From the NCBI GenBank assembly GCA_023159155.1, contig JAJNNX010000069.1, positions 124,001 to 188,000 of the forward strand: 64,000 nt of DNA. Direction: 5' to 3'. A model generated the notes under the pieces. It saw only the letters and a list, made by a program, of their open reading frames with translations, made no database searches and was not told the DNA's origin. Origin of the DNA: Ustulina deusta (taxonomy: Eukaryota > Ascomycota > Sordariomycetes > Xylariales > Xylariaceae). Made by a program: the position numbers and the translations under genes. Shown here in pieces: positions 1-58,048 of the stretch (position 1 is its first letter; each line of letters opens with the position of its first letter).

Positions 1-2959
1 TATTATTTTAAGTTTATAATTAAAAATAATTATAAATTTAATTATAAAATAGTTATAAATGTTATATAAATAAAGAACCAAAATATATTATATATAATTA
101 ATACTATAATATTATTTTAAGCAGCTATTTTTTTGAAATCTATATTTATATAAAATATATAAAAAATATTATATAAATGCTAAATTAATATTTATTAAAA
201 ACTTTTTAATAATATTATATATAATTTAAAAACAAATTTTTTATTAAACAAATTTAAAAAATATATAAAAATAATAAATATATAATATTATAAAATATTT
301 ATTAAAGCATACTAAATAATCAAAAAAATAAAACAAACGTATGGACTGCTAAAACATATATATAATATTTTTTAAAAAGAAATTAATATATAAACAAATA
401 ATAAATTAATTTTATAAATAGTAATTAAAGCATTAAACAATATAACTGGACTAAATAGCTTTATATTAACTTTTTTTATTTTTAGAGCATACTTATATAT
501 TAATAAAGATTTTCTTTTTTTTTAGCCCTTGTATAAAAAGTAACAATTATTTAAAACGCAATAAAAATACTATATAAAAACTATATAAAAGTTAAGATTA
601 ACTATACAATTAAAGAATAAAATAGACTATTTTTATATAATATATTTATATTTTTTTATAGCAAAGTTTTAGTATAAAAAAAAATAAGAAAGCTTATATA
701 AAATTAAAATAATTAAAAAAGTTAAATATAATTATTGTTTTAATAAACAAGCTAATATATTTTTGCTATATATAAGTTAAACTATATTATTATACAAAAA
801 ATACTTAGACTAAAGATATAAAAAATAATAGTATATAACTAATATAGCTAATAATAATATAAAAAAAATATAGCTAGCCAAAAAAAGAACTTATTATATA
901 TTTGTTATATAACGCCTAAATATTATAGATTTTTTTAACTATAAAAAAATATTAAGCTTTTAAGTTAGTAACTAAACTTTATATAAATAGGATTATTATA
1001 ACTTTTAAAAAATTATTTAAAAAGTTAGATATAATAAAAATTAATAAACTTATTATATATAATTTAAATATATATAAAAAAAATATATTTTTAAATTTTG
1101 CTTTATATAAAAAATAAAAAATAAAAATATTAACCTATATAAAAAATTAAAACTAGTTATATAAAGGTATAATAATACTAAAAAAAGTATAGTTTTAATT
1201 TAATTGCTAATAATCTAATAAATAAACTAATAGTTAATTTTAGCTTTTAGACTTATTTTTATATATAATTTTAGAATATTATATAAGCTTAAAAATATTA
1301 CTTAAGTTTATATCTAGTTAGAAAATAAACTATTATATAATATTTATGCTTATTTATTTTTAGAGCTAAAAAATAAATATTGTTTAAAAACTATCCTATA
1401 AATTATATAACTTTTATATAGCTTGGCTAAATTTAGGCTATATTAATTTAAAACTTATTATTAATACTACTAAAAAAAACTTAAAATATAAATATTTATA
1501 TATAATTTATGCTTACTATTTATATATAATAGCCCGGATATTTTTAGAATAACTAAAATATAAATAAATAATATTTTAAGCTTTATAACTCCAAACTTTT
1601 TAGCGCACAAAAAGGAAGAACTTTAGCAAGCAAAACTTTATACAAAGCTAAAAAAAACTTTATTTTTTAACTACTTAATTAAGTTTAATAGTAAAAAAAT
1701 TTTTTATATAAATATAATATTATAATAACCTAAAAAAACCAAACTAAAGATTTAGCTAAAATTAACCTTTATATAAAAAACTTTGCTTAAGTTTATATTT
1801 TTTAATAAGCTTAAAAAATATATATTAGTAATATATATTAACTAAAAGCTATATATAATTTTGTTATTATAGCTTAAATAACTAAACTATAATTATATAA
1901 TATTAAAGTATTAAATAAATAAATTAAATAATAATAAAATAATTTAACTTAAAAATTTATATTTATTTTATTTAATTTTTATTATATAAAATTATTTATT
2001 TTTATAAATAGTTTATTTATAAATAATATAAATATAATTTATTAGTTTAGCTTTATTAATATATTAGTAGTTAAAACTTATATAAAAAATATAATAAACT
2101 TAAACTTTAAAATTAAAAGAAATATTATATATTAGAATTTAAGCAAATATAAATAAGTTATATAAAGTGTTCTAGCTAGTAAATTATATAGTATAATAAG
2201 CAGCTTGAATAGTACTATTGCTTTTTATATAACCTTTTAAAAAGTTATAAAAATATTTAATTTATTTTTAATATTTGCTATTTTATGTTTAAAGTTAAAA
2301 TTATTATATAATTGTTTGGTTAAACTAAAAATAATATAAAAAAAAAGATTAATAATTAATATTATATTTTTTAGTAATTATATAAAAAAAAAGAAATTTC
2401 TAAAATATAATAAATTAATAATAAAAATAATCTAATAAATATATTTATTAAGCATACCTTAAACTAAGCATTAAAAACTCTAGTTTTTATTATTAAAATA
2501 TTTATTAAAAAACTATAAAAAATATATTTATATAATAAAAAATAGCTAATAACTAGGCTATATATAAAAAAGCAAATATTATATATAAGTATTAAAAAAA
2601 AATAAAAAAGTATAAAAAAGATAACAAAAATTTATTTATATTTTAAAGAGCTAATATATAACTACCCTTTTTTTTAAATAAAACTTTTCTTTTTTTTTTT
2701 TAATTATAGTTAAAATATTATATTTTATATAAGCACTAGATGCAAGCGCTACATATACTTCCCTAAAAACTAGGGACCTAACAATATACCAAAAATAGTA
2801 CTTTAGTATAGTAGCAGCAGCTACTATACAAACTGTTTATATAAAGCAGGGATATTATTTCCCGATTTTGGACCAAAATAGCCCAAAAATAACTTTTTTA
2901 GCAGATAAACTTAGCTTAAACATTTGTAAAAACGTTTAATAATAATACTTAAAATATAA

Positions 2960-3186
2960 TATTAATAAACAAAATGTTACAATTAGTCAAATAAAGCTTT
3001 TATAGTTAGTTTATTAATACTATAGACAAAGATTCTAAGCTAAAAAAGAAAAAAAGAAAAAAAAAGTTAGAGTTTATAAAGTAAATAGATATAGATTTTT
3101 TATTTTATTGCTATATAAGTCTAGAATTTTTATAAGTTTTGCTAAAACTATACCTAAAATTATATAAATTATACTAACTATTATAT
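2960..3186. repeat. Left copy of LTR-like direct repeat
   Basis: This segment aligns along its length with 8,552-8,819 in the same orientation, for example the shared run TTTATTAATACTATA and the shared run TTTTATTTTATTGCTATATA. The copies lie about 5.4 kb apart, as expected for the two LTRs of a retrotransposon. This copy is the more degraded: where the right copy has G or C, this one usually has A or T. No terminal TG/CA or target duplication could be fixed. Confidence 0.5.
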
Positions 3187-6100
3187 TACTTTTTTCTAAA
3201 ACTAAAAGTTTAAATATAATTTAAGGTTACTAATAATATTAAGTTTATATATTTTTTTTATATTATATTACTTTATTATTATTTTTATAATTATTTGTAA
3301 ATTTGTTAGCTATTATTATATATATTTATTTTTATAATTTTATAGGGGGTCTAGGGGCTTTTTTATAAGTTTTATAGAATTAGTTAAGTTTAATTAGCGC
3401 ATTTTTAAAATTCTAAGTTGCGTACTAAATATTATTAGAATTGCAGCCTTTTTAGGCAACCTAATATTACAATTTTTTGTTTTTTCTATATATTTTTAAT
3501 TGTTCGATTTGTTTGATTTTAAATTCTGTTTTGCTATTAATATTTTTAGTTAAAAGTAATAATTAAATTTATTAAAATAAAAAGTTATTACTTACTTTTT
3601 ATAATTAGTTAGTATAAAATAGGTTTTTTATTTTATAAAAGTTAAACAAATTAAAAATATAGCTAAATTTTTATTTTTTTAAAATCTTAAAAAATCTAAC
3701 TAACTAGAAGTTTAATCTAGTAATTAGTACTTATATTACAAAACTTTTTTTTTTTTAAAAAAACTTTATTTTTTATTTTAAAATTTATTAAGCGTTTTTT
3801 TTTTTTTAGTTTATAGTTTGTATTGTTTTTATGTAAGGGTTATTATATTATATGCTATTCTTTAAACATTTTAAGTTTAATAAACTAGTTTAAGCGCTTA
3901 TTGTTTAGTATTAGAATTTATAATAGTTTTATTAATATTTATTATTAAAAAGTTTTATGTTTTAATTCCTATTGCGATTTTTAGTAGTAATATATTAATT
4001 AATAAATATTATAAAAAATTATATATAAAATCTAAAACAAAAAAATAAATATTTTAATTATTCTAGTATTTATTAATATAGAAATAAAATTATTAGTTTA
4101 GTTTTTAATTAGTTAATTTTATTATTTTTTAGGTTTAAAAGTAATAAATACTACTTAAGTAATACTTAGTACTTATAAAACTATTAATTATTACTATAAA
4201 TTTAAAAATAAATAGTTTTATATTATTTAATATTTATATATTTAATATATTAAAAAATTTATATAGATTTTTATAGTATTATATAGCTAGTAATTTTATA
4301 ATGTTTATTTTTTTGCTAAATAAAGTTGCAATTAAATAGCTAAACTTATTTATAAATATTTATATATAATTATAATTTTATTAGTTAAGTAATATATTTT
4401 TATTATTTATTATTATATATTGCTATATTATAGTTAATATAAATAATAAATAAAAAAAACTAAAAGTTTTATTTTATAATATTTTGTTTTTTTTATAATT
4501 ATATTTTAAATAAAACTAGTAATATTTTTGTTTTAATATTTTGATTGTTTTATATTAATTTTAGTATATAATAATTAAAAATATATAAGTTTTTTAAATT
4601 AAAACTATATAAAAAAATTAATTTTATTTAAAATAATTTTAAATATATATAGCTTTTTGTTTTTATTTTTTAGATTTTATAGTTAGTTTTTTTGTTTAAT
4701 TAGATTTATTAAGTTAGCTTTTTAAAAAATATTAAATAAAAAGTTTATAATTAATATAAAATTTAATATTTTGTTAAGCAGGATTAATACTATTATTTAT
4801 TTTTTAGTTTTTTTAGTTTTAATTATAAAAAGTTTAGCTATTTTTTTTAATAAAGTATTAGTTATTATATTTTTTTGTTCTAGTTAGTATTAAAAAGTAA
4901 TATTAAAGTTTAATAAAAAGTTGGCCTAATATATTTATTATATTAATAAAATCTATTTATTTAAAAAATATAATAAAACTTAATAATTAATTATTATAAA
5001 AAATTTAATTTTAAAAAGCTTTAAATAATAATATTTTAAAGTTTATATTATTATTAAAAGTTTATAGTTTTAAATTAAATAAGCTTGTTTAATTAGTATT
5101 ATTATTTTAAAAAAATACTTTATAAGTTTTTAGGTTATATTTTTTTATTACTACTAGATAATTTTTTTTATTATATTATATAAGATATTTGTTTTTATTT
5201 ATATTAGTTAGTTAGGCCTAAAAAAAACTAGAACAAATATTTTATAAACTAGCAGTTTTATATATTTAAAAACTTATTTTTTTATAATAGTTAATTTAAA
5301 AAAATAATAATTTTACTAATATAATAAATAAATATATAAATATAATTATAAAATTTAAAAAATAACTAAGTTAATTTAATATTTTTAAAATTATTAAAAT
5401 TTTAATTTAAAATTGTTTAAATTTTTATAAAGTTAATTTTAATTTTTATTTTAGTTTTTATAATTATTTTTAAATAATTAATAATAAATATATTAAAACA
5501 AAAATTTTTAATGTTTTTTTAATATTTAGCTTAATATAAGCAATAAATTACTTTTTTATAATAAATTTAATACTATTTTTTAGTTTTAAAATAAATTAAA
5601 ATATTATTTATATAAATATTTATAAACTTGTTTAGAAGTTTTTAAATTTATATATTAATAAAAGCTTGCTATTAAATAGGTTTTATTTTTAAACTAAATA
5701 ATAAAACTTTTTATTAAAATATTTTTTTATAAGTTTAAAAAAAATAAAATAATATAATTTTATAATTAATAATAATTAATAAAAATTTTTAATAATATTT
5801 AGTTTTATAAATTAAATAATATTATAATAATTAAATATAATATTATTAATATTTAAAACTAATATAATTTAATTTTTTAAATATATATTTTTTATTAATA
5901 ATTAATTATAAACTTATATTTAATTAATTTAAGTTTAAATATAAATAAAACAAAAATAATATTTAAGTTTATATTTTGTTTAATAAAATTTATAGCTAAT
6001 AATTTATTTATAAATTTTTTTTTAAATAAAATAAATTATATAAATATATAATATTAATAAAAGCTAGAAATATATTTTTTATTATTAAGTTTTAATACTA

Positions 6101-8551
6101 TATTAAATTTTAATTATAATAGTAGTAAAGTTTTGGATTTTTTTTTAAAAAGAACTTTTTTAGGTATAATAACTAAAAAAGCAAAAAGCTTTATATTAAT
6201 TTTATATATTAGAAATTTTTTTTTTTTAAAATAAGATTGGTTTATTATTAAAAGTTTTTTATAATATTATTTAATTAATTTAAATTTATTTCTTTTATAA
6301 AATATTAATTACTTTTAAGTTTTTTTTAAATAGTTTAATATAACTATTTTTAGTTATTATAAACTTAATTATAATAAGTTTTTTTAAAGTTTTTTTAGTT
6401 AGTTATTTTTATTTATTTTAATAAAAATAATTTTAAAAGTTTTATATAATTTTTTTAATAATAACTTAGTTTTTTTTTTTTTTTAGAAATTATTATATAG
6501 ACCGTTTTTGTTTTAAGTTTAAAAGTCCTAATTTTTTTTTTGTTTTTTTAGTTTTAATTATTTTTAAAATAATTATTTTATTTTTAAAAAATTATTTTAA
6601 TATTTAATAATATTTTTTTAATACTTAATTATATTTTTTTATATTTTTAGGTTTATATTTTATTATTTATAGCTAAAAAGTTTAATTATAATTATTAATA
6701 AAAATTAAACTAATAAAAATAAATTATTTAATTAAATTAATTATTATTTTTAAGTTTTTATTAAAATATTTTGTTTTATTAATTATTTAATACTAATAAT
6801 AATATTATAATTAAAATTAATAATTTAAAACATTTAATTTTTAAATTATTAATTATTAATTTTTATAATATATATTAAATATTTATAAATTTTGTTAACT
6901 ATTTTATTTTAGTAATTATAAAACTTTTAAAATTTAATTAATTAAACTATTTTTATTTTTAATTATTATTTAATTTATTATATAAATTTATAACTAATTA
7001 TTAAAAAAATATAAGCTTTAATATTATATAAAACTAAAGTTTTTATTTTAATATTATTAATTTATAATTAAATAAATATTTTAAAAATAATTAATTTATT
7101 TTAGCTATATATTTTAATTAAAATAAATAAAAAAACTAATAAAAAAAATTTTATTAGTTTTATTTATTTTTTAAATCAAATAAACTACTAGAGCTATTTT
7201 TATTATAGCTTTTTTTTACTAATTAAATATTTAAAACTTTAAATTTTTAATTAAAACAATTAATTAATTTTTTTTTTTTTTACTATAAATAAAACAAGTT
7301 TTATTATTTTAATAAACTTTTTTTTTTTTTATAATTAGTGCTTATTTTAACTATTTTAAAATAAATATTTTACAATTTTTAAAATTAGCTAAAAATTAAT
7401 AAGCTAGTTTACTAAAAATTTAATTATTTAAATTAGATTTTTATTTAATTTTATTAATAAATAATTTATAAAAAATATTTAAATTTATAAAAACTTTATA
7501 TAAGTTTTTTTTTAAGTTTATATAAAAATAGTTCTATAATTTATATTTTTATTATAATTTAATAAATTAATATTTTTAAACTAAACTATTAAATATAAAA
7601 ATAAACTTATTAATATTTTTATTAGTTTTATATATATAAATTTAAAATATTTTATAAATAATAATTATTTAATTAAAATTATAATAAACTATTAATAAAG
7701 CTTAATTTATTTTAATAATATTATTAAATAGTTTTTTAATTAAATAAAAATATATTTTTATTAATTTTTTAATATATTTTTAACTAACTTATAATATATT
7801 AAAATTAACTATTTTTAGTTTAAAATATAGTAATATTTTTATTTAACTTTTTTATTAATTTATAAACTTAGTTATTAAATAAAGCTTTATTTTTTATAAA
7901 TTTATTAAGATTAATTTTTTATATTTTAGCTTTTTTAATATAAATAAAGTTTAAAGCACTAAAAAATAAACTAATAAAATAAAAAACAAATAAAGCAATA
8001 AAACTAAAAAGTTTAAAATTAATATTTTTAAATATATTTTTTATTATTAAATTATAGTTATTTTTTAAAAGTACTAAAATAAACATATTAAAAAATTAAT
8101 ATTTTATTTTTTTTATTTATTAAAAAAGTTTTGCTAAAACTAATATAAAATTATAAACTTATATAATTATAATATTTAGTGCTATATTTTTAAATATATT
8201 ATTTATTTTAAATTATTTTAGTTCTAGTTTAGATTTTTTTTTTTTATAAAAAATTTTTTTTTAAAATTATCCAATAATAAAAAGCTAGCTATACTTAAAA
8301 ATTAAAATTGTTTTAATTATTTAAAAACTAAAAATAAAATAAAAATATTTAAAGTTAAGTTTTTTATAAACTATTAGCTTTTAAATAATATAAAAATTAA
8401 AAAATTTATTAAAATTATATTAAAGTTAGATTTATATTATAAAATATATAATTTTTTATATTAAATATATAATAAAAAAAAAATTTATTTATATTTTATT
8501 AATTATAACAAAATAAAAAATATTTATTTATTAAATATTTATTAATAAATA

Positions 8552-8819
8552 ATTAGTAAGCTTAAAATAGTATTATAATTAATTAAGTAAAGTTTTTATA
8601 GCTAGTTTATTAATACTATAAATAAAGATTTTAAATTAAAAAAAAAAAAAAAAAAGTTAGAATTTATAAAATAAATAAATATAGATTTTATATATATAGC
8701 TATAGAGTTAGGTTAGTCTATGCGTAAACTTTTTATTTTATTGCTATATAAGTCTGGAATCCTTGCAGGTCTTGCTAAAACTATACCTAAAACTATATAA
8801 ACTATATTAACTATTATAT
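8552..8819. repeat. Right copy of LTR-like direct repeat
   Basis: This is the partner of 2,960-3,186. It carries an extra segment of about 40 bp (about 8,691-8,729) absent from the left copy. It keeps more G/C, for example near 8,755-8,775. The interior between the copies is too mutated to show gag or pol. A solo-repeat pair unrelated to an LTR element is also possible. Confidence 0.5.
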
Positions 8820-9180
8820 AAAGTAGTAATAATAGTACTTTTTTTATTTTATTATATAATAAAACATATTAGTTATTAAATATACTAAGAATTATTTATA
8901 TAAAAATAAAAATTAAAAATATATATATATTTATATAAAAAGTCTATATAAAGGCCTAGTAGGCCTGACTCCTTATAGGGAGGCTATATATTTTTATATA
9001 GCTATTGTTTTTTGTACGGACGAAATTTTAAAACTACGAAACGCTACCTAGGGCGGGCGGCGCTAGATATAGGCAGGCAGGGGCAGCAATAGACATACTG
9101 CTATTATTACTGCTACTACTAATAGTACTGCTTAAATTATTATTAATATAATACTTAGAATAACAAAAAAGCTTTATATA

Positions 9181-9290
9181 TAATAGTAATAGTAGTAGTA
9201 GTAGTGGTAGTAGTAGTGCTATTATTATTAATAATATTATTATTATTATTACTACTATTATTATTACTACTATTATTATATAATAACTAT
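9181..9290. repeat. Trinucleotide microsatellite (AGT/ATT)
   Basis: A run of AGT units passes into ATT and ACT units over about 110 bp, interrupted by a few substitutions. It lies in the less degraded island of the A/T-rich block. Confidence 0.85.
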
Positions 9291-9330
9291 TATTTCTAGG
9301 TTAATATAACTTTAAAATAATAGCTAGAGT

Positions 9331-9356
9331 ATATATATAATATGTGTGTGTGCGTG

Positions 9357-9389
<33 letters not shown>

Positions 9390-9390
9390 G
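9331..9390. repeat. TA/TG dinucleotide tract
   Basis: Alternating TA with a central TG stretch forms a simple dinucleotide repeat of about 60 bp. No coding or regulatory role is visible. Confidence 0.8.
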
Positions 9391-9502
9391 CCTAAAGAAA
9401 AAGAAAAAAAGAAAAAAAGGAAAGGTAGTACAAGAGCGGCCCGTTTTATATATAATAGCTGCAAATGTTATGCTTTATTTAATCTTAAATATTTCTAAAT
9501 AG

Positions 9503-9607
9503 CGTACGGAAAGTAGTTACGTACGGAAAGCAGTTATGTATAGAAAGTAGTTATGTATAGAAAGCAGTTATGTACGGAAGGTAGTTATGTACAAAAAAGC
9601 AGTTATA
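9503..9607. repeat. 17-bp tandem repeat, about six units
   Basis: Units of the form GTACGGAAAGYAGTTAT follow each other head to tail. Units differ by single transitions (GTACGG or GTATAG at the start, AGTAG or AGCAG in the middle). The last unit is longer by one base and degraded. The word GTACGGA also occurs near 9,016 and in the hairpin at 9,930-9,956, so the whole island may belong to one repeat family. Confidence 0.8.
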
Positions 9608-9929
9608 TATAATAGGCAAACTACGAAAGGCCTTTTAAAGAAACAGCAATTTATTATATTGTTAGATAATTTTATTAGCTATAGATTAGCTGTATGTTAT
9701 AGTTTATATTTTTTTTACGTTTAGAATTTCTTATTTTTTTTAGCAGTTGTATAGAGGTGCGCTACAATTAAAAAAAAAAAGAACTAGTGTTGTAATAATA
9801 GTGTTAACTATATATCAAGCTACTGCCGACTACGTATAAGACTATTTATATAACACTAGCAATTGGCTGATTGGTTTAATTGCGTAGGCGGTATATATAT
9901 GCAGAATTCTTTTACTGTATAAGAATCCT

Positions 9930-9956
9930 CCGTACGAAGGTCTTGCTTTCGTACGG
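9930..9956. repeat. Perfect 9-bp inverted repeat (hairpin)
   Basis: CCGTACGAA at 9,930-9,938 and TTCGTACGG at 9,948-9,956 are exact reverse complements separated by 9 bases. The GC-containing stem has survived inside otherwise A/T-rich DNA. It may be the end or core of a decayed element. Confidence 0.6.
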
Positions 9957-11700
9957 ATAATTAGAGAGATAGATCAATATATATAGTTATTTATTTTACC
10001 TCTTTGTTATATACGATATTGTACCCCCTGGCCACCTAACACTATAGCTATATATATAGATTGCGTTATCTCCTACTAGTACTATATTATCTAAATTAAT
10101 ATTCCTTAAATATATAAAATAATATACCTAGTTAAATATATAAATAGTTAATCTAAAATCTACTATAACTAAATTATATAATTTATATGTTTTAGTAAGC
10201 CTTTAATTAATAATAAACAAGCTTGCCACTTTTGCTATAAAAAGCCTTAAAAATTAATTATTCTAAAAGTTATCTTTTAAAACCTTAAATTTTCTTTTTT
10301 TCTTTTTTTATTGCTTTTATGCTCTCTCTACCGCCTATTTAACACTTTTTTTATTTATTATATATATTTTAGCTATTTTATTAATACTTTAATTAAATCT
10401 TTAGCTTTTTAATTAAAGCTTTATAAATATAAGCTAGTAGCTTAATATATAATAATAACTATAGTATATAATATAATCTTTTATATTTAAGTTTTTTTTT
10501 TTAGTTTTAGTTCTTATATTAATATAAAAACGCTTAATAAAAATATTTCTAAAGCTTTTTCTCTAATTGTTTTAATAGTTTTTATAACTATTATTAGTTT
10601 AATATTATTAATAGCTTTTATAATTTTAACAATTTTATTTAAAATAATCTTTTTTTTAATTATTTATAAGATTGTTTAAATTGTTTTAGTTATTAAAAAG
10701 TTTAAAAATATTAAAAGCACTTTTTTTAATAATCTTTCTAGAAATATAAATTATACTTAAAATTATAGCTTTTTAATATAGTTTAGTAGTAATAATCTAG
10801 TATTATAAAATATTATTTATAATAGTATTATAATAAATATTTTAAAAAAAATTAACTTAAACTAGATAAATATTTTATAAAACTTTTTTTAAATTAATAA
10901 TAAGCTTAAATAAATCTATTGTTTTAGTATTTTTTAAATAAACTTTAAAAACTTTATTAAACTACTTGTTTACCTATTTAGTTAGATTTTTAATAGGTTT
11001 TCTAGCTATAAAATTAATAAAAGCTTTATATTTTAATTTATATTTAAACTTTAAAGCATGTTAGGCTATATTTCTAAGCTCCCTAAAATTATTGTACTAT
11101 TTATTAATTGTTTAGTTAGCTTTTATTTATATTAAGTAATAATTTAAATAAACTATTTTATATATTTATTTAGTAAGCTTAATAAATTTAGTTTAATAAT
11201 TAATATAATATTTAAAAGCAATTTTATAGTACTATTTAGTGTTTTAATATAGCGCTTTTTTAGTAATTATTAGTTTTATATATATTATAGTATTAAAATT
11301 AGTAATTCTAATAAAAAAAAATTGCTTATTAGTAGTACGCTTAATAACTAAAACTATAAAGCTTGCTTTATTTTTTAGAACTATATATTTTTAAAAATTA
11401 TAGTTATAAGTGCTAATAATAAAAAATTTTTTTTATAATAGAAAGTTTTTTAAAAAATTAAATATAATAATATATTATTTAAATATAATAATAATTTTTA
11501 TATATTTTTAGCTAAAAATTGCTTATAATAAAATATAAAAATTAATAAAACTTTTAATTATTAGATTTAATATTATAAAGCGTACCGCATATATATATTT
11601 AGATCGCTTTATTTATTATTATTTTTTATAAATCTTATTTTATTTTTATAAAATATTTATTTATAAGCTTGCTAGTAAGTATAGCCTAGCCATACTTATT

Positions 11701-12579
11701 AAGCTATATTATTAAGCTATAACGCTTATATAACCAAGTGATCCTGCTATCCATGCCTAATTAGCTCTCTTCACAGCTACTAGCTATGGGCCAAATCCAA
11801 CACCTGGCTATAGGTAGGTATTATTCTGTATACCTACTTATAATTAGGTCTGCATCGAGTACTCAGACCAGCTATGCGTTGCTCAGGTAGAAAAATTAGA
11901 AAAAAATATGATTGGCCAGAAATTCAGGCTAGTGGGGCCATGTACCATTAGCCACAATGAAAACGCGCTAGCTGGTCTGAGCGCTGAGATAACCTCCATG
12001 GTCCTTCTCTTGCTGAACTCTGCCCAAAATGCATATATCCATCCCTACCCCTCTTCCAATTCACCGTCCACCTATGCCAGCATAGCCCCTTCCAAAACAA
12101 GTACCTAGCAAGATTCGACATCCTTAGCAACAGGGTGTTTGGTATCAGTACAGTGAGTATGCACCTATTGTACGTTCCGGCGATGCGTAAGCCTTTGGGC
12201 CTTGGCTTCCTCGGGCAGAGAAAGATAGCCGACAAGAGTAGAGTATATATATGTGAGCTCGGAGAAAACAAAAGTATTGCAAGATAGATACCACAAGATA
12301 CCATCAAAACTCCCCCAACGCCTCGTCTAATCTTGCATTCAAGACGCCCACTCCTATAGCTCATATGAAATGACCAAAAAAATTTAGACAATGAAAACCG
12401 CCCATGCCCGAGAGACAAGATAATATCCGAAAGGGATTGAGTTGTATAGTCCCGGAACGCCAAGAACTCCATCGCCTGCCCGCTTGCCATCACCGAAAGT
12501 CGTCATCATCGAATCGTTCCAACTCTCCAAACCACTCCGGGTCCAACACGAAATCCGGAGGGTGAGTTGCGTAGACTTT
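11701..12579. other. Boundary and gene-free spacer
   Basis: Base composition changes here from extreme A/T to a balanced mix within about 100 bases. No gene was recognised. The right end is the 3' flank of the minus-strand gene ending at 12,580. Confidence 0.6.
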
Positions 12580-57854: not shown

Positions 57855-57867
57855 AAAAAAAATAAAA
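57855..57867 (-). terminator. RNA polymerase III T-run terminator of the tRNA-Lys gene
   Basis: On the minus strand a TTTT followed by a run of eight T lies about 45-55 nt beyond the tRNA 3' end. Between them a 7-bp hairpin (CTCCCAG, 57,881-57,887, with CTGGGAG, 57,892-57,898) would be part of the precursor trailer. Confidence 0.65.
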
Positions 57868-57911
57868 GTTTCGGTTGCTGCTCCCAGTTACCTGGGAGGC
57901 ATCAGGAATTG

Positions 57912-58048
57912 AGCCCGATGCGGGGGTCGAACCTAATGATTGCAGTTAGCTTTTGCGCTCTTATTTAAGAGGGGAATAAGAACAGGATAAACTAACCCGC
58001 AACCTTGAGATTAAGAGTCTCACGCTCTACCGATTGAGCTAACCGGGC
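57912..58048 (-). tRNA. tRNA-Lys(CUU) interrupted in the T-stem
   Basis: The minus strand from 58,048 reads a complete tRNA: acceptor GCCCGGT paired with ATCGGGC, D-arm GCTC/GAGC with loop AATCGGTA, anticodon arm TGAGA/TCTCA with loop CTCTTAA (anticodon CTT, Lys), variable AGGTT, T-arm GCGGG/CCCGC with loop TTCGACC, discriminator T. It is exactly 73 nt once 64 nt at 57,933-57,996 are removed. The insertion lies between T-stem bases, not at the standard position 37/38 next to the anticodon. The A box (TAGCTCAATCGGTAG) is intact, and the B box (GGTTCGACCCC) is rebuilt across the junction because the insert ends in G, so polymerase III promotion should still work. Without removal of the insert the T-arm cannot form normally, so the gene is either processed in an unusual way or is a recently broken copy. 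All other stems are perfect, which favours recent origin or function. Confidence 0.93.
57933..57996 (-). other. 64-nt intron-like insertion inside tRNA-Lys
   Basis: On the minus strand it starts GTTAGT, holds GCTAAC 18 to 13 nt before its end and ends CATTAG, the three signals of a fungal spliceosomal intron, with a short pyrimidine-rich middle. The length of 64 nt is typical of introns in this genome. A CTCTT/AAGAG hairpin lies in the middle. A GTT repeat at both edges makes the exact borders movable by 3 nt, as a small target duplication would. I see no clear bulge-helix-bulge for the tRNA splicing endonuclease. Confidence 0.75.

Follow-up and report, generated by a model that had tools for sequence, protein, structure and literature searches.

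The gene for tRNA-Lys(CUU) in one stretch of the genome of Ustulina (Kretzschmaria) deusta, a wood-degrading ascomycete, is interrupted within its T-stem by a segment that resembles an mRNA intron, which raises the question of whether such a gene can still give rise to a tRNA and, if so, which machinery would remove the interruption. The window (the whole stretch of DNA that was analysed, 64,000 nt) lies on contig C90 of the 56.06-Mb assembly of 123 contigs that was searched here; the published draft genome of this fungus is given as 46.5 Mb in the available text of its report (PMC5658485). We consider it very likely that the segment is a spliceosomal intron of the U2 type, that the tRNA-Lys(CUU) gene around it is functional and of the Pol III type, and that the intron belongs to a set of such introns in the Pol III genes of this fungus. 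This set would comprise the T-stem introns of three exon-intact Lys-CUU loci, an intron in the D-loop of the only Arg-CCU gene found and the introns of both U6 genes that score over the Rfam cut-off. We class the introns as putatively spliceosomal by their sequence and the host genes, likewise, as tRNA genes. The features of the window locus are as follows, in window coordinates:

58048..57912, minus strand: tRNA-Lys(CUU) gene of 137 nt, split (52 + 64 + 21).
57997..58048, minus strand: 5' exon, tRNA nt 1-52, ending at base 4 of the 5' strand of the T-stem (GCGG) and identical in 6/7 Lys-CUU loci.
57933..57996, minus strand: mRNA-type intron of 64 nt, GTTAGT...GCTAAC...CATTAG, with a genome match to itself only.
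57991..57996, minus strand: putative 5' splice site GTTAGT; the same hexamer starts the protein-confirmed PRP1 intron in the window.
57945..57950, minus strand: putative branch-site motif GCTAAC, presumed branch A at 57946.
57933..57935, minus strand: putative 3' splice site TAG.
57912..57932, minus strand: 3' exon, tRNA nt 53-73.
58030..58041, minus strand: uninterrupted TAGCTCAATCGG, which we take from the consensus to be the A box.
57923..57933, minus strand: GGTTCGACCCC, presumably the B box by its consensus, with the intron's last G completing the motif in the DNA.
57899..57921, minus strand: alternative hairpin of the 3' acceptor strand GCATCGGG with the trailer CCTGATGC; 8/8 pairs in 6/7 Lys-CUU loci, one pair broken in C29.
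57881..57898, minus strand: second trailer hairpin, CTCCCAG/CTGGGAG.
57855..57867, minus strand: T-runs, TTTT and then eight T, the likely Pol III terminator.

After removal of the intron, the window gene has a complete cloverleaf accompanied by an A box, a B box and a T-run, and ARAGORN reads the joined exons as tRNA-Lys(ctt), equal to the three intronless genes of the genome. The presumed branch A is 13 nt from the intron end, the position of the cut is ambiguous by one G, and the first run of at least four T starts 45 nt past the tRNA end. In unspliced form, the window gives an Rfam tRNA match of 36.1 bits (model positions 8-63), while the short window locus gives 48.7 bits, 68 of its letters standing opposite 4 of the model. 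Run on the unspliced window, ARAGORN called no tRNA. A preliminary description of this DNA had placed the exons at 58048..57997 and 57932..57912 and the insert at 57996..57933, with GTTAGT at its start, GCTAAC and a terminal TTAG, and these coordinates are exact and the motifs correct. It had also stated that the B box is rebuilt at the junction, and the intron's last G indeed restores GGTTCGACCCC in the DNA. Its proposal of an mRNA-type intron in a Pol III-type gene is supported, with both promoter boxes kept.

To place the window gene among its relatives, we consider the seven loci of the genome that match the Lys-CUU 5' half at three or fewer mismatches, all of them (7/7) without a mismatch. 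Three are intronless (C1, C24 and C39), and four (C67, C90, which is the window locus, C102 and C29) have an insert at one common T-stem site, after GCGG. Over 73 nt, the exons of C67, C90 and C102 have 0 differences from the intronless genes. Their inserts of 55, 64 and 63 nt start with GTGAGC, GTTAGT and GTGAGT, respectively; the branch motifs are CTAAT, CTAAC and TTAAC, whose branch A lies 11-13 nt before the insert ends, and the last three bases of each insert are TAG. Outside these terminal signals, the similarity of the inserts is not above that of shuffled sequences (z of -2.1 to 0.6 for the three pairs). The trailers of the same three loci differ in 8/41, 10/43 and 11/43 aligned columns, and those of intron-bearing and intronless copies differ by 8 to 12 per 40-44 columns; the intron-bearing genes are therefore not recent copies of one another. 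The ARAGORN survey of the genome found 0/3 of the exon-intact intron-bearing Lys genes, and the exact Lys pattern had 0 matches in viral-contig and genome-contig collections, among which there is no relative of this genome.

The fourth insert-bearing locus, C29, has GC instead of GT at the joint of the same site, with a GT four bases further in. Its tRNA has an A-to-G change in the B box, some pairs of its acceptor stem are broken, and the 100 nt downstream contain no stretch of four T. C29 is a natural control in which the splice site and the tRNA, in both exons and terminator, have decayed together. The clear decay of this locus, along with the existence of three intact intronless Lys-CUU copies, makes it conceivable that all intron-bearing Lys-CUU loci are pseudogenes, the insert being inert and the intronless copies doing the work. 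We regard this as unlikely, since the exons of C67, C90 and C102 are unchanged despite unrelated inserts and the differences in their trailers, the B box and T-run kept in these three loci are damaged or lost in C29, and tRNA-Arg(CCU), described below, is without an intronless copy in the searches made. With three intact intronless genes, the intron-bearing Lys genes could be dispensable, and the likeness of the exons could in principle be maintained through gene conversion by the intronless copies. That the window gene is a freshly disabled copy, as had been suggested, is not borne out: the site is occupied in four loci, the inserts have diverged beyond recognition and three exon sets are unchanged. 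The suggestion of a mobile introner-like element fares no better, as the only match of the window insert in the 56-Mb genome is the insert itself (a search made with this insert, very common words being skipped) and the sister inserts are unrelated to it. Such an element is expected in near-identical copies, and this candidate was rejected.

The Lys trailer contains two hairpins that are largely kept in the family, the first of which pairs with the 3' acceptor strand. Across the seven loci, the second has two-sided changes in 2/6 pairs, although its covariation term is only -0.35, and three of its pairs have 1-2 broken or gapped cells. The hairpins are also present in the intronless copies and are thus not tied to the intron. 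Spliceosomal introns normally sit within Pol II transcripts, and this fact, like the keeping of both hairpins across seven loci, would fit a reading in which the loci are parts of Pol II transcripts, as tRNA-like domains in long non-coding RNAs that are spliced without making tRNA. We find this reading extremely unlikely: the A box, B box and T-runs are in place, the intronless sisters share the layout, the joined exons are flawless tRNAs, and homology between the Lys-CUU loci runs from the first bases of the tRNA to within or soon after the trailer, with only short weak pieces (E of 0.02 or more) beyond it. As a separate observation, a hairpin-like trailer can be seen by eye before the T-run after some other tRNA genes (e.g., L046, L047, L050, L054, L055 and L041-L044), and the tRNA-Ala(AGC) trailer resembles a T-arm by eye (e.g., GGAGGTTCAATTCCTCC).

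The second isotype with an intron of this kind is tRNA-Arg(CCU), at a locus first listed as a truncated tRNA match with Rfam at a loose threshold:

C80:782250-782650 (assembly G000, locus L151), nt 75-206: tRNA-Arg(CCU) gene with a 59-nt mRNA-type intron in the D-loop; the only copy found.

In the DNA, GCCGTACTAGAGAAATGG is followed by the intron, GTAAGT...GCTAACTTAGATTACAG (59 nt), and then by TTAACTC...GGTGCGGTG, with the intron signals GTAAGT...GCTAAC...ACAG. The intron comes directly after the GG of the A box, the joined exons give tRNA-Arg(cct) with a cloverleaf in ARAGORN, and a run of eight T starts 7 nt past the gene. When three or fewer mismatches are allowed, a 22-nt pattern covering the anticodon arm and variable loop matches the genome once (reversed control 0), while the spliced 73-nt sequence matches this locus only, over nt 18-73, the 5' exon being too short to find. 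Given the single match of both, no intronless Arg-CCU gene was found in the genome by the pattern and spliced-sequence searches and a partial tRNA inventory. The preliminary description had held that many intact Lys-CUU copies, together with an absence of spliced reads from the window locus, would make that locus a simple pseudogene. Three intronless Lys-CUU copies do exist, but the argument does not extend to tRNA-Arg(CCU), which is split by an intron of this kind and of which a single copy was found. We therefore think it probable, if less secure than the classification of the introns themselves, that this fungus needs the spliceosome as a tRNA-maturation enzyme, in that tRNA-Arg(CCU), the dedicated decoder of AGG, would be encoded only in intron-split form and would arise from its Pol III transcript by no other route than mRNA-type splicing. 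If this is true, there is a third nuclear tRNA splicing route beside the endonuclease-ligase one, and translation of AGG codons is linked to spliceosome activity.

Introns of the same type are found in the U6 snRNA genes of this genome. With 47/2779 first-look candidates scored, two loci are above the Rfam cut-off, and 2/2 carry mRNA-type introns, at different positions:

C91:574090-574241 (L154): U6 gene with a 53-nt intron, GTACGT...TACTAAC...GCAG, between GAAGAT and TAGCATGG.
C69:1560121-1560227 plus an upstream exon (L155): U6 gene with a 50-nt intron, GTAAGA...CTAAT...GCAG, between CAATTTG and AAACGATAC.

A B-box-like AGTTCGAATCC lies within the C91 intron, and a B box is likewise present in the U6 intron of fission yeast. 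Five weaker U6 matches lie under the cut-off, of which three were fetched; one of the weaker matches, on C86, resembles by eye a decayed gene related to the C91 type. Since splicing depends on U6 and both U6 genes over the cut-off are split, at least one Pol III RNA must be spliced in this fungus, unless an intronless U6 was missed.

When the introns of the exon-intact genes (three Lys, one Arg and two U6) are compared, 6/6 have GTNNG at the 5' joint and YAG at the 3' joint, and 6/6 have YTRAY with the branch A 10-13 nt from the end. The longer motif GTNNGY is present in 5/6, with the exception being the GTAAGA of the C69 U6 gene, whose intron has a second YTRAY at 28 nt. The combination GTNNG..YTRAY..YAG is found in 4/4 inserts of exon-intact tRNA genes and in 2/2 U6 genes over the cut-off, and not in C29, which fails GT at the joint; by chance, it occurs in a fraction of 0.00016 of 400,000 random segments of 50-66 nt (from 252 kb of this genome, three boundary placements allowed). 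The six introns are 50-64 nt long and, as for a U2-type spliceosomal intron, lie within the range of the genome's mRNA introns: in a genome sample, 20/23 GTRAGY..CTAAC..YAG patterns are 48-83 nt long in a search limited to 42-100 nt. In the 252-kb sample, GTAAGT with a downstream CTRAC (and YAG) is in clear excess, with 18 occurrences versus 3-5 when the motif is permuted (five permutations). No such excess with CTRAC is seen in that sample for the hexamers that open the Lys introns (GTTAGT, 6 versus 2-8; GTGAGT, 3 versus 4-6; GTGAGC, 5 versus 2-6 for permuted motifs), and so these are not distinguished by this measure. Two of them start mRNA introns within the window itself, namely a 106-nt intron of the PRP1 gene that starts with GTTAGT and whose removal gives a translation equal to P0121, and a 56-nt intron that starts with GTGAGT and whose joined frame is open and like P0242 (both by protein comparison). 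A set of introns predicted ab initio by coding score was set aside as too noisy.

These shared signals bear on whether the tRNA splicing endonuclease might remove introns at ectopic positions here, as in archaea and the red alga Cyanidioschyzon merolae. In the text available to us, C. merolae tRNA-Ile is described with a T-arm intron at 53/54 (PMC9602550) and archaeal introns are described at 20/21 and 53/54 among other positions (PMC4090602). Such a route is nonetheless very unlikely for the genes in question, as 6/6 introns of exon-intact genes share spliceosomal signals that an endonuclease should not be expected to preserve, the same signals are seen in the U6 introns of this genome, and minimum-energy folding of the three Lys precursors places the splice sites in differing contexts, with no shared fold at these sites visible by eye. 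On its own, the window intron folds tightly (z of -3.7), compared to z of 0.01 to 1.38 for the other five introns, and most of the 5' splice site in the predicted window precursor is paired with the branch region, a pairing also predicted for a piece without the first seven nt. This predicted pairing might hinder splicing of the window copy. Since the other five introns show no excess of folding, the fold is probably incidental to the window intron, although it may make the window copy a poor substrate.

A partial tRNA survey scored 63/2280 first-look candidates, among which there were no Phe, Cys, Pro or Asn tRNA genes. The T-arm pattern with a TAG end, TAGGTTCGANYCC, has 59 matches (control 9), of which three are the known Lys loci and the 56 others were fetched. 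ARAGORN found a tRNA in 0/56, and as this program misses the known split genes, the loci were rechecked with Rfam: 0/56 reach the tRNA cut-off, with three weak tRNA matches of 20.5-22.8 bits, and L117 has weak matches to other Rfam families, far below the cut-off. The corresponding pattern with a CAG end, CAGGTTCRANYCC, has 37 matches (control 23), four of which are known Ser or His genes. Among the others, 10/33 were read; one of these gives an Rfam tRNA match above the cut-off (L177), and its T-arm is uninterrupted by eye. The D-loop pattern TRGNNNARYGGGTRAGT has 11 matches (control 4), one being Arg-CCU, and all 10 others were fetched and gave no tRNA match at E 5. For other RNAs, 29 matches to 5S rRNA over the cut-off span 98-128 nt and a single match to SRP RNA spans 284 nt, with no intron-sized insert apparent from the spans in either case.

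Several further observations were made along the way. In the anticodon region of the tRNA-like L177 (C69:1558700-1558950; 31.1 bits), 53 letters stand opposite 13 of the model. ARAGORN reads C59:340545-340781 (L152) as a tRNA-Arg(TCT) whose anticodon loop holds an intron of 164 nt, unusually long for a canonical tRNA intron. In many of the 56 loci L095-L150, a B-box-like TAGGTTCGAGTCC or TAGGTTCGAATCC precedes TATCAGCGCTATTTGG or TATTAGCGCTAGTCC, and these loci may represent tRNA-derived SINE families; another repeated B-box-like sequence, AAACCGCGCAGGTTCGAATCCTG(C/T)AGCT, is seen in L171, L172 and L175. Positions 1-12000 of the window are extremely AT-rich (GC of 13.6%, 7.3% and 19.1% in three 4-kb blocks, beside about 50% GC) and are possibly RIP-affected or centromeric.

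Every intron-bearing tRNA gene with intact exons has an uninterrupted A box and B box in its DNA, and both intron sites (Lys T-stem and Arg D-loop) fall between these boxes. Under the spliceosomal reading, Pol III would transcribe tRNA-Lys(CUU) from the boxes that the intron leaves whole, read through the intron and hairpin trailer, and stop in the T-run. The spliceosome would then recognise GUNNGY, YURAY and YAG and join GCGG to GUUCGACC, with the expected junctions being GCGG|GTTCGACC for C67, C90 and C102 and AATGG|TTAACTC for Arg-CCU. Once joined, the T-arm could fold, and end trimming and CCA addition would follow. Counting against such a scheme, recognition by the spliceosome is as a rule tied to Pol II and the cap. 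The anatomy of the genes, the shared position, the conservation of signals and exons and the one Arg-CCU copy in the searches made are read directly from the DNA; transcription, spliceosomal excision and the order of processing are what we infer. Together, they suggest that the spliceosome also has to finish some tRNAs in this wood-rotting fungus. Should splicing proceed as we propose, there would be a further route of tRNA maturation, such genes would escape tRNA finders, and whether the spliceosome acts on Pol III transcripts other than U6 could be tested directly in a wood-decay fungus. There is also a bearing on intron gain. The position of U6 in the spliceosome active site is the usual explanation for its introns, and reverse splicing has been invoked for their gain because U6 lies there, whereas a tRNA is outside the active site.

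Among known systems, rDNA and U2 are Pol I and Pol II genes. The spliceosomal introns of ascomycete rDNA and the mRNA-type intron of Rhodotorula U2 are similar to those described here in residing in non-coding RNA genes, as far as the available text goes (PMC2586383), but their hosts are not tRNA. Our search of the open-access literature, in the portions accessible, returned no report of spliceosomal tRNA introns, and the available parts of two 2014 reviews on tRNA introns and tRNA gene diversity contain no word beginning with "spliceosom-" (PMC4090602, PMC4033280). According to the accessible text of a 2017 paper, U3 and U6 were at that time the only small structured RNAs for which frequent interruption by an intron was known (PMC5832005). 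The fungal U6 introns, of fission yeast and others, are spliceosomal introns within a Pol III RNA gene, as here; the same paper cites the fission-yeast U6 intron and Canzler et al. 2016 on U6 introns. Fungal U3 snoRNA genes likewise have normal spliceosomal introns in a small structured RNA (PMC5832005), but differ from the tRNA genes in gene type and processing route. A recent gain of introns in a related family of Xylariales is exemplified by the proliferating (stw)introns of Hypoxylaceae, which the available text describes as highly similar repeats in protein genes (PMC8469720), whereas the tRNA introns here are unrelated to one another and that of the window is single-copy. In the parts of the literature available, excision of nuclear tRNA introns is otherwise ascribed to the tRNA splicing endonuclease or to a mechanism that has yet to be identified, and for most eukaryotes a short insertion in the D- or T-arm is regarded as marking a pseudogene (PMC4090602, PMC9602550, PMC4033280). 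The closest counterparts by position are the D- and T-arm introns, even at 53/54, of C. merolae, nucleomorph and archaeal tRNAs, which are described as being of the bulge-helix-bulge (BHB) type and cut by the endonuclease, or else very short with a mechanism not known, such as the 3-24-nt tRNA introns of Guillardia theta (PMC9602550, PMC4090602). The tRNA introns of U. deusta, by contrast, are 55-64 nt long and have 5' splice, branch and 3' splice motifs.
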